Part shown: in pieces, positions 3,553-11,387 of the stretch
Position numbering within the stretch: position 1 is the stretch's first letter
How the letters are laid out: each line of letters opens with the position of its first letter
NCBI GenBank assembly: GCA_005239475.1
Contig: SPAX01000003.1
Location: 1-33,060 of the forward strand
Direction of reading: 5' to 3'
Origin: Nitrospira sp.
GTDB taxonomy: Bacteria; Nitrospirota; Nitrospiria; Nitrospirales; Nitrospiraceae
DNA length: 33,060 bases
Position numbers and translations under genes: made by a program
The notes under the pieces: model-generated
The model's database searches: none
What the model saw: only the letters and a program-made list of their open reading frames with translations
Told to the model about the DNA's origin: nothing

Positions 3553-3588
3553 GAATGTGCGCCTGTACCGATCTTCTTTCCTCGGTTA

Positions 3589-3714
3589 GCAGGATGCTGA
3601 AAAAGTCCGCCAGCAGCGTTCTCGCATCGTTCAGACCCTCAACGTACCCCAGAGGGTACGCTTCGGCCCTTCACTCGCTGCGGCCTTGCTGGACGGCCTT
3701 TTTGAGCATCCTGC
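3589..3714. repeat. Interspersed terminal-inverted-repeat element, copy 1 (126 bp)
   Basis: The left end GCAGGATGCTGAAAAAGTCC and the right end, read on the other strand as GCAGGATGCTCAAAAAGGCC, form terminal inverted repeats of about 22 nt with three mismatches. A perfect 7-bp internal hairpin lies at 3643-3660 (CGTACCC, loop CAGA, GGGTACG). A related element occurs in opposite orientation at 9968-10163, sharing both ends and a core GATGCGAGAACGC block. No coding potential is seen. It resembles a non-autonomous MITE- or REP-like element. It lies in the prfB-lysS gap, where it may affect read-through or mRNA stability. Confidence 0.75.
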
Positions 3715-3790
3715 AGGAATGTCGTGCTGTTGTGCCACACATACGCACCCTCGAAATTCTCGCGTACCAAAATACTGTTCTCTCAGCTTG

Positions 3791-4940
3791 TTAGCTATCG
3801 AACTCGTCCGCACCTGACTGTTGATAGCTGAGAGCGGTTTTCCCAAGCTGCTTCATCTTCAGATAGGCCTCGATGAACCCGTCCAGATCACCGTCCATGA
3901 CGGCGGCTACCTGGCCCACTTCGTAGCCGGTCCGGTGATCTTTGACCATTTGATAGGGCTGGAACACATACGATCGAATTTGGCTGCCCCAGGCAATATC
4001 CTTCTTCTCCCCGACGATCGCATTGAACTCCGCCTCTTTCTTTTTCAGTTCCAGTTCATAGAGGCGCGCCTTCAAGACCTTCATTGCGCCATTGCGATTC
4101 TGGAGCTGTGACCGTTCGTTCTGACATTGCACCACGATTCCGCTCGGCAGGTGCGTCATGCGGATGGCTGTCTCGACCTTGTTCACATTCTGGCCGCCGG
4201 CGCCGCCGGCCCGAAAGGTATCGATCTTGAGGTCTTTGTCTTCGATCACGAGGTCGATATCGTCATCCACCTCGGGATAGACGAATACTGAGGCAAAGGA
4301 GGTATGCCGCCGTTTGTTCGCATCGAAAGGTGAAATGCGCACCAGCCGGTGCACGCCTGCCTCGGCCTTGAGATAGCCATAGGCATAGGCCCCTGTCACT
4401 GACAGCGTTACACTCTTCACTCCCGCTTCTTCTCCTGGGAGCAGGTCCAACGTTTCAACCTTGAATTTCTTGCTCTCGGCCCAACGGACGTACATGCGGA
4501 GCAGCATCTGCGCCCAGTCCTGCGATTCCGTTCCACCGGCGCCAGGATGGATCGCCACAATCGCGTTGTTGGGGTCCAGTTCGCCCGAGAGCAGAAGTTC
4601 AAGTCGCAACGTGGCGAGCATCGGCTCAAATTGATCCAGCTCGAACGTCAACTCCTTGGCCAGCCCGGCGTCGGCGCTTTCTTCTGCCAACTGGAGTAAC
4701 GCGCCCAGGTCGTTCATCTTCCCATCGATATCACGCCACTGCTGGAGGTCGCGCTCAATCGTGGACTTCTTCCGGCTGATCTTGGCGGCCTTCTGAGCGT
4801 GGTTCCAAAAATCCGGCTGTGACGTCTGCTGCTCTAGATGTGCCAACTCGGCCGTCATGCGAGCGAAGTCAAAGATGCCCCCGTAGTTCCAATACCAATT
4901 GTTCGACGGCCTGCACGCGATTCTTTACCTCATCTAACAT
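3791..4940 (-). CDS. prfB: Peptide chain release factor 2, with programmed +1 frameshift
   Basis: RF2 terminates translation at UAA and UGA codons. The gene is in two frames. Positions 4940-4872 encode 23 residues starting MLDEVKNRV, then an in-frame TGA at 4871-4869. Skipping the T at 4871 continues at 4870 with DFAR and the long second frame to 3791, giving 382 residues. The slip sequence CGG GGG CAT CTT TGA C matches the well-known RF2 autoregulatory site. In the merged protein the stop-codon-reading SPF tripeptide is at 203-205 and the peptidyl-hydrolysis GGQ motif at 248-250 (GAGGQNVNK). An AAAGGA precedes the ATG. Annotating only the second frame would start at ATG 4858 and lose the N-terminal helix. 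lnt lies upstream with 17 nt between stop and start. The C-terminus is longer than in E. coli RF2. Confidence 0.95.
4868..4885 (-). promoter_or_regulatory. Programmed +1 ribosomal frameshift site in prfB
   Basis: Read on the minus strand the site is CGG GGG CAT CTT TGA C. A Shine-Dalgarno-like GGGGG is followed by the slippery CTT codon and then UGA with a C after it. In E. coli RF2 the corresponding AGG GGG TAT CTT TGA C lets low RF2 levels favour the +1 shift, so that RF2 controls its own synthesis. The spacing and key bases are conserved here, so the same feedback is inferred. Confidence 0.93.
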
Positions 4941-9637: not shown

Positions 9638-9967
9638 TTCAGTCTCCTTCTCGATGATGTTAAGGCCCCTGACGTCATGTCGATGGTGGCTCCTGCTGCA
9701 CAGACAATAACGTCCTCATGGCGAAGGAACCAAGAGGGCGTAACTCTGTCCCCAAACGATTCTGCGTGGTTGGATTGGCAAAGGCAACATGGGATCACAG
9801 TACACATCGCTGCTTCACGATTTGTAGTTTGCCATTTTGCGCCTTTTACCGTGAAAAATCAAACTGACGCCATGATGGAATTACACGCCCAGCAGCCTGC
9901 GGAAAACCTATGTGGGCACGCCGGGATTTGATGGGCTCGTATGTCTGGGACAGTAGGAGTATACCCC
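9638..9967. other. Intergenic region without a recognised gene
   Basis: I find no convincing gene in this stretch. A plus-strand frame crossing it begins antisense to the small membrane protein gene and lacks protein-like composition. The segment should hold the promoter of the minus-strand gene at 9637, but I could not pick out clear -35 and -10 boxes. The bases GGGGACAGAGTTACGCC (minus strand, near 9750) resemble ends of REP-type repeats by eye, but there is no second copy in the window. Confidence 0.4.
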
Positions 9968-10163
9968 GCAGGATGCTCAAAAAGGCCGTACAGCAATCCG
10001 TGAGACGTCATACGTGAAACGATTCGGAGTAAGCGCACTCGGCAGTCCTACGTTTCACCTTTCGCGGTTCGTGAGAGCGATGCGAGAACGCCGCCTGGTG
10101 AAAGGCGCGTCTCGGCGCGCGGGGTTGGGCGGGTGAAAAAAAAGCGACTTTTTCAGCATACTG
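9968..10163. repeat. Interspersed terminal-inverted-repeat element, copy 2 (about 196 bp)
   Basis: The left end GCAGGATGCTCAAAAAGGCC is identical over 20 nt to one end of the element at 3589-3714 (reverse strand). The right end GACTTTTTCAGCAT matches the other end. The shared core GATGCGAGAACGC lies at about 10079-10091. The interior differs: a nested inverted repeat (GTGAAACG near 10014 and CGTTTCAC near 10051) and a GC-rich segment ending in eight A residues are unique to this copy. The element lies immediately downstream of the argJ stop codon. It is non-coding and probably non-autonomous. Confidence 0.7.
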
Positions 10164-11387
10164 TTACGATCGATAGCTTGCATTAATGCGGACATAGTCA
10201 AACGACAGGTCGGTCGTCCACATATGGGCCCGGTGACGACCTTGCCCAAGCCCCACGGAGATCGTAAATTCTTTCTGACGAAAGACCTTTGCGATTCGGC
10301 GTTCAGCCACGAGTCCGAGTCCAATTCCTCGCTGTACCATTGGGACCCCTCCAAACCACACGTTCAGCTTCGAGGGGGTAATTGGGACTCCGGCTCGTCC
10401 GATCGCGGCCATGACACGACCCCAATTGGCATCCTCGCCGAACAGGGCGGTCTTGACCAAGTTCGAGGTCGCTATGGTTTGGGCCACCTGCCGTGCCTGC
10501 GCCACGGTGGCTGCTCCGGTCACCTCAATGTTCACTACCTTGGTGACACCCTCCCCGTCGCGACAAATGGCCAGCGCGAGTGCCTGGCAGGCTTCTGTCA
10601 GGAGCAGCAGGAACCGACGGAAGGCAACCGTACCTTCTTTGATTGTGCGGTTCTCAGCCAGGCCGTTCGCCAAACACAGGACGGTATCGTTGGTACTCGT
10701 GTCCCCATCCACTGAAATGCAATTAAACGACTCATTGACCGCCAGGCTGAGCGCCTGTTGGAGAGCATTCCTCGTGATCGAGGCATCCGTAGTTAAATAA
10801 GCCAGCATCGTAGCCATGTTGGGATGGATCATTCCAGAGCCCTTGGCCATCCCGCCAATGGTAATCAAGCGACCGCCGATGGTGTCCTGAAGGGCGATGG
10901 ATTTCGGGCGGATGTCGGTCGTCATGATCGCCCGAGCGGCATCGAGGCCTCCACGGTCGCTGAGCTGAGTGAGCAGCTGCGGTATTCCCTTGATGATTCG
11001 ATCGACCGGTAACACGCGACCGATCACACCGGTGGACCCGATGAAGACGTGGTGTGAGGGGATACTCATGTGTCGTGCGACCACCGTGGCGGTTTTTTTT
11101 GCGGCCGCTAATCCCTTGGCGCCAGTACAGGCGTTCGCGTTACCACTGTTGACGAGAATGGCCCGTCCGATTCCCTGCCGCAGGTGTAGGCGATCAACGA
11201 TGACCGGTGCCGCGACCACCTGATTTTGTGTGAAAACCCCGGCGATGGGACCGCTCTGTTCTGAGGCGACGAGCGCGAGATCGAGCAGGCCTGGCTTCTT
11301 GATGCCGCAATGTATGCCGGCTGCGCGGAACCCCTGCGGTGCGGTGATCCCGCGGCGTGGAGATGTTGTCGGTGTTTTCCTGGTCAT
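10164..11387 (-). CDS. argJ: Bifunctional glutamate N-acetyltransferase / ornithine acetyltransferase
   Basis: ArgJ transfers the acetyl group from N-acetylornithine to glutamate in the cyclic arginine pathway; many members also use acetyl-CoA to make N-acetylglutamate. The 407-residue product is of normal length. The conserved NSGNANACTG segment (80-89) is present. So is the self-cleavage region KGSGMIHPNMATML (182-195), where Thr193 becomes the N-terminal nucleophile of the beta chain. The C-terminus ends in a typical YVRINASYRS. The start is ATG at 11387 with only a weak ribosome-binding site, 32 nt after argC. Its stop codon TAA lies at the very edge of the repeat element at 9968-10163. 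Whether it is mono- or bifunctional cannot be told from sequence alone. Confidence 0.96.
   Translation of the reverse strand: MTRKTPTTSPRRGITAPQGFRAAGIHCGIKKPGLLDLALVASEQSGPIAGVFTQNQVVAAPVIVDRLHLRQGIGRAILVNSGNANACTGAKGLAAAKKTATVVARHMSIPSHHVFIGSTGVIGRVLPVDRIIKGIPQLLTQLSDRGGLDAARAIMTTDIRPKSIALQDTIGGRLITIGGMAKGSGMIHPNMATMLAYLTTDASITRNALQQALSLAVNESFNCISVDGDTSTNDTVLCLANGLAENRTIKEGTVAFRRFLLLLTEACQALALAICRDGEGVTKVVNIEVTGAATVAQARQVAQTIATSNLVKTALFGEDANWGRVMAAIGRAGVPITPSKLNVWFGGVPMVQRGIGLGLVAERRIAKVFRQKEFTISVGLGQGRHRAHMWTTDLSFDYVRINASYRS

Follow-up and report, generated by a model that had tools for sequence, protein, structure and literature searches.

A modular hairpin family of Nitrospira: very probably MITEs moved into YTAR sites by an IS5-type transposase

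The locus and its two copies

The window, the whole stretch of 33,060 nucleotides that was analysed, belongs to Nitrospira sp. (assembly GCA_005239475.1, contig SPAX01000003.1, here C213). The genome measures 3.56 Mb in 289 contigs and is incomplete. Two copies of a palindromic repeat lie in the window, copy 1 in the gap between lysS and prfB and copy 2 beside argJ. A first-pass annotation, made from the letters of the DNA, had placed them at 3589-3714 and 9968-10163, with common ends, a common core GATGCGAGAACGC and mutually inverted orientation, and all of these features are present. The limits drawn at that time are real but enclose only sub-parts of the units, which run in full from 3590 to 3790 and from 9893 to 10163. 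The copies were also described as intergenic. This is true and can be put more exactly, as the tail end of copy 1 adjoins the prfB stop codon (TAA, 3791-3793, minus strand), and the G end of copy 2 adjoins the argJ stop codon (TAA, 10164-10166, minus strand). The features are as follows.

3586..3589, plus strand: left target-site duplication of copy 1, TTAG, seen in the sequence and matching 3791-3794.
3590..3790, plus strand: full mobile unit of copy 1, 201 bp, hairpin and tail; sister genomes lack it in the orthologous lysS-prfB gap, and its boundaries are those set by the 100-unit family.
3590..3714, plus strand: hairpin arm of copy 1 (G end, interior and internal C end), the element of the first-pass annotation; a long imperfect palindrome, -62 kcal/mol as RNA, aligned in 34 units.
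3695..3714, minus strand: internal C end of copy 1, GCAGGATGCTCAAAAAGGCC, from the end-motif search.
3715..3790, plus strand: tail of copy 1 with degenerate right terminal repeat; profile match at 3717-3787 and alignment.
3791..3794, plus strand: right target-site duplication of copy 1, TTAG, holding the prfB stop TAA (minus strand, 3791-3793), seen in the sequence.
9893..10163, minus strand: full mobile unit of copy 2, 271 bp, in opposite orientation and with a longer modular interior; family boundaries, and absence in sister genomes.
9893..9967, minus strand: tail of copy 2 and right terminal repeat (CAGCCTGCGGAAAACC on the plus strand, 9893-9908); profile match at 9891-9966, 54 bits.
9968..9987, plus strand: internal C end of copy 2, from the end-motif search.
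9988..10143, minus strand: interior of copy 2, with a TTTCACC/GTGAAACG block, a GCGTTCTCGCATC core, a GCGCGCCGAGACGCGC hairpin and a TCACCCGCCCAACCC block; similar blocks turn up in other units.
10144..10163, minus strand: outer G end of copy 2 (CAGTATGCTGAAAAAGTCGC on the minus strand), from the family boundaries.
10164..10167, minus strand: target duplication of copy 2, GTAA, holding the argJ stop TAA (10164-10166); its partner at 9889-9892 is degenerate, CTGG.

The mobile unit of approximately 200 bp is made up of the 126-bp hairpin and a previously missed tail of approximately 75 bp, which closes in a third, outer repeat. Read inward, the G end is GCAGGATGCTGAAAAAGTCC (3589-3608 in copy 1) and the C end is GCAGGATGCTCAAAAAGGCC (3695-3714). 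The units are longer than first drawn because the tail, which recurs in other copies, sits outside the C end and finishes in the third repeat, TTTTTCCGCAGCCTG. The terminal inverted repeats are imperfect, with 5'-CAGGATGCTGAAAAAG on the left and CAGGCTGCGGAAAAAC on the right. The true outer termini start at CAGG, and the G or A that precedes this belongs to a duplicated 4-bp target, YTAR. When the two window loci are aligned with sister genomes, the missing stretch exceeds the element of the first-pass annotation. The 126-bp hairpin was rejected as the mobile unit because the break at empty sites lies beyond the tail, at the outer ends.

Family size and distribution

The end 20-mer GCAGGATGCTCAAAAAGGCC has 332 matches at up to 3 mismatches across the 3.56 Mb, while the reversed control has 0. 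This corresponds to an estimated 165 or so hairpins genome-wide, assuming two end matches for each. A 16-mer core is present in all 24 of the other Nitrospira genomes sampled, with 1 to 96 matches each, and in three of 16 genomes from other families of the order, with 1-3 matches each. In a scan of one genome for each of 84,980 species, all 80 loci among the matches listed carry Nitrospira or Nitrospirota names; the scan comprises at least 80 loci, and records close to the genome of the window are possibly missing from it. The MITE family is in practice confined to the genus Nitrospira. The search of the genome and its relatives for further copies, which the first-pass annotation had proposed, thus succeeded: the 332 end motifs against 0 in the control, and the genus-wide spread, dispose of the view that there are no others.

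Unit statistics were taken from 1.15 Mb in 81 stretches of the same genome, mostly picked for containing the end motif. Profiles of the G end, the C end and the tail were run across these, and 100 units were delimited, mostly with the G end first, followed by the interior, the C end and the tail. The internal C block is found in 71 of the 100. A few of the 100 paired a C end with a G end over a short length; a length and score filter removed them and left 82 units. Listed lengths range from 124 to 465 bp, typically about 200 bp, and no transposase gene lies inside. The earlier picture, in which an abundant family of non-autonomous elements shares its ends and exchanges its middles, is borne out by the copy number, the spread across the genus and the differences of interior found in place.

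Target-site duplications and empty sites

TA adjoins most unit ends. In units with TA at both ends, left and right match in the bases beyond it as well (37 of 47 and 40 of 47), which sets the duplication at 4 bp. The flanking 4-mers are identical on the two sides in 27 of the 82 units, compared with a shuffled mean of 11.6 and a maximum of 22 in 2000 shuffles. These identical pairs consist of CTAG (13), TTAG (7), CTAA (5), TTAA (1) and ATAG (1). Target-site duplications, suggested as a check in the first-pass annotation, therefore flank the units as 4-bp direct repeats of the YTAR type.

At the window loci, most of the 29 relatives examined per locus have an empty orthologous site, which in the close relatives can be followed base by base. 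A further 22 units were compared with four close relatives; two had no usable two-sided match, and most of the 20 loci with such a match are empty in at least one relative. Several of the empty sites break exactly at the outer ends, for example between GTCGGTCTAG and TCTAT and between GAAGCCGTAA and TCTTT. One unit is common to the genome of the window and G022 and is absent in G008, and at a few loci the relative holds another insert instead of a clean gap. Empty sites, another check named in the first-pass annotation, are thus found in sister species, and a fixed placement of the copies is contradicted.

Some individual loci were recorded separately. At the target site of L091:1993-2190, G022 holds another inverted repeat of approximately 198 nt, CCCGCATTATTCATGA...TCATGAATAATGCGGG (L271, G022:C339:9792-11012), and the same site is empty in G008. 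The L271 repeat possibly represents a second palindromic family that shares targets with the first. L040 (G012, 1329-1500) appears to be an independent insertion in the lysS-prfB gap of copy 1, with a shortened tail. In L267 (G043), the counterpart of L096:4338-4626, the same CTAG site appears to hold a unit in the opposite orientation.

Hairpin and tail as modules

The mean identity among 34 standard units is 88% for the hairpin and 52% for the adjoining tail. Distances correlate between the two halves of the hairpin (Mantel r = 0.73) and between the two halves of the tail (r = 0.60), and the correlation of hairpin with tail is about 0. At two orthologous sites (L135 vs L244; L139 vs L265), the ends and tail are common to both species while the interior differs. 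Several interior blocks recur in different units, some of them also elsewhere in the sequence searched. With hairpin and tail distances uncorrelated, interiors that differ at shared sites and blocks that recur, the hairpin evidently has a history separate from that of the tail. The GTGAAACGTGAGGCGTGAAACG, AAGGTTAAGGTTGAGG and CGTGCTCGCGCAACGCGCGG blocks each occur in approximately 20 places in the 1.15 Mb of this genome, mostly outside delimited units.

There is a good possibility, somewhat short of a probability, that the hairpin arm, running from the G end to the C end, is a spreading cassette which overwrites the hairpin of an inserted unit by gene conversion or transposase-driven stem-loop replacement. 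The gap in identity between hairpin and adjacent tail, the lack of correlation between them in spite of correlated halves and the changed interiors at two shared insertion sites all argue for this, and the replacement of stem-loops is documented for IS1272 (PMC5678879). However, the high divergence of the tails could have eroded an old signal, and the correlation within the hairpin may stem in part from base pairing. The IS1272 mechanism need not apply, as the transposase that matches the family (see below) falls below the IS1182 cut-off. Gene conversion and IS1272-like stem-loop replacement would both be possible routes of hairpin exchange. The cassette complements the MITE reading and does not exclude it.

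Insertion at stop codons

A unit boundary lies exactly at the stop codon of a called gene in 31 of the 82 units (expected 12.4%, p = 4e-9). The expectation is the share of stop codons among the available non-coding YTAR sites, and the gene calls come from a simple hexamer score, uncurated. In 25 of 33 cases (p = 0.005) it is the hairpin side that is turned toward the gene. Four loci were checked in sister genomes that lack the unit, and there the gene stops at the identical codon, so insertion did not create the stop; the argJ stop is at the same place in sister genomes that lack copy 2. As TAA or TAG is part of YTAR, stop codons would receive many of the insertions. The duplication would preserve the stop, so that the gene outlives the insertion, with a hairpin added directly behind it. 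The bias may owe something both to the choice of target and to selection against the disruption of genes. A family unit with other modules is found at the argJ stop codon of copy 2 in G019 (L066, approximately 1286-1505), with the nearest relatives empty; either recurrent targeting or repeated loss would account for this.

That the units persist behind genes because they serve as transcription terminators, or as RNA processing or stability hairpins, is rather unlikely; the first-pass annotation had raised an exapted termination or processing signal as its alternative. The position at stop codons and the orientation bias are in keeping with such a function. As RNA, the copy 1 hairpin (-62 kcal/mol) has A5/T5 flanking a GC-rich inner stem, which could end RNA in both directions; its high stability and the A5/T5 beside the stem make a two-way terminator conceivable. 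Against this, there is no surplus of units in convergent gaps (7 seen, 9-11 expected), and YTAR targeting together with selection against gene disruption would also yield the placement at stop codons. A simple terminator scan was negative for copy 1, but its limit on loop length leaves out long hairpins. The consensus fold of the tail, searched for a conserved RNA structure, shows no pairs there.

The probable transposase partner

Two related insertion sequences (IS) of approximately 1.3 kb, in the sister species G014 (G014:C74, L226, 366-aa transposase) and G008 (G008:C102, L234, 363 aa), are framed by a matching repeat. Both ends of each are CAGGCTGCGGAAAAAC, the right-end consensus of the family, and the flanks are CTAG/CTAG and CTAG/TTAG, respectively. 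YTAR is the documented target duplication of IS5 (PMC10359306). The 366-aa and 363-aa transposases score 281 and 267 bits on the NCBIfam model NF033581 (IS5_4), which has a cut-off of 140. On the IS1182 model they score 176-182 bits, below its cut-off of 270, and an IS1182 identity of the partner was dropped. These IS thus share the right-end repeat and YTAR flanks with the units; they differ from them in carrying a transposase and in having neither the hairpin arm nor the left variant of the repeat. The likeness is limited to the outer 16 bp, and the sequence just inside differs.

A second group of IS1182-like IS, with the repeat CAGGCTGTTGACAAAC and CTAG or TTAG flanks, was observed in G023, G042 and G043 (L219, L220, L221). 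IS with this repeat were considered first as the partner and were set aside, as the repeat differs from both unit ends.

The family is very probably a Nitrospira MITE family that is moved through its outer repeats, by an IS5_4-type DDE transposase on a separate 1.3-kb IS, into YTAR. The MITE assignment follows from the 4-bp YTAR duplications, the exact empty sites and the related IS5_4-type IS with the same right repeat. Mobilisation by a transposase encoded elsewhere, which the first-pass annotation had raised, gains support from the duplications, the empty sites and the two IS that share the outer right repeat. The transposase would recognise the outer repeats CAGGATGCTGAAAAAG (left) and CAGGCTGCGGAAAAAC (right), excise the unit of approximately 200 bp and insert it at YTAR, duplicating those 4 bp. 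The evidence for this type of transposase is strong, and the chemistry would be cut-and-paste. The role is deduced indirectly because the match covers the right repeat only: no IS with the left repeat was found in the genus genomes examined, and none with a matching right repeat in the incomplete genome of the window, in 289 contigs. IS collapse in assemblies of this kind, and the absence of the partner from this genome therefore means little. With a mean identity of 52%, the tails have diverged too far for all units to have transposed together recently, so that a large number of the units may be old or immobile.

It is very improbable that the units are of the REP/BIME type and owe their movement to a RAYT (Y1) transposase. 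They are palindromic, extragenic and near stop codons, and the genome has two Y1 (RAYT-like) genes (G000:C218:6660-7007 and G000:C106:2324-2647), but long terminal repeats and 4-bp target duplications point to a DDE enzyme and not to Y1. The reading was rejected, as neither gene is framed by the unit repeats as a terminal pair of its own. An IS630/Tc1-mariner MITE with a TA duplication, a scarcely credible reading suggested by the TA at most unit ends, was rejected on account of the agreement of the bases outside TA, which makes the duplication 4 bp, and of the finding that none of the 30 IS630-type (DDE_3) loci examined in the genus is framed by unit ends.

Relation to known systems

MITEs have already been linked to IS5 and to IS1182 elements, according to the part of PMC3852290 consulted. 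The MITEs of Methanosarcina acetivorans described in that part, assigned to IS1182 with ISMac2 partners, are alike in length (160-169 bp), in terminal repeats (25-26 bp) and, for one of them, in a 4-bp direct repeat. They differ in host and copy number (7-14), and the same part contains no mention of modular interiors. QMITE2 of Coxiella burnetii (PMC5896051) is also a hairpin MITE, with one copy at the 3' end of a gene, at the stop codon; its host is different and its direct repeats are 7-9 bp. BOX, RUP and SPRITE of Streptococcus pneumoniae (PMC10969869) are likewise intergenic and are inserted into one another, and SPRITE has terminator-like sequences. The host is again different, and the likeness is one of description. 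The stem-loop replacement of IS1272 (IS1182 family) could explain interior swaps, but IS1272 is a full IS without target duplications (PMC5678879), whereas the Nitrospira units show clear 4-bp duplications.

No description of the Nitrospira MITE family was found in the literature searched, which mostly excludes subscription journals. The unit end sequences, as an unbroken word, occur in none of its papers, and none was found that joins Nitrospira, MITE and IS630. Nitrospira moscoviensis stands in the RepRanger survey table of palindromic repeats (PMC12306157), some of which may belong to the present family. The unusual traits of the Nitrospira MITE family are its docking on stop codons and its decoupled modules.

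Significance

The family would account for an abundant repeat of Nitrospira, which are major nitrifiers and hard to grow, and it provides assemblers and annotators with exact unit boundaries. Sister species offer the same stop codons in filled and in empty form, a natural insertion series that would show directly what a mobile hairpin does to gene 3' ends. With hairpin and tail decoupled, the exchange of modules in place becomes testable in bacterial MITEs. It is tentatively proposed that the element has two layers: an IS5-type MITE docks on stop codons, and its hairpin arm is repeatedly swapped in place while the docking site and tail stay fixed. If this is true, genes would receive interchangeable 3' hairpins.
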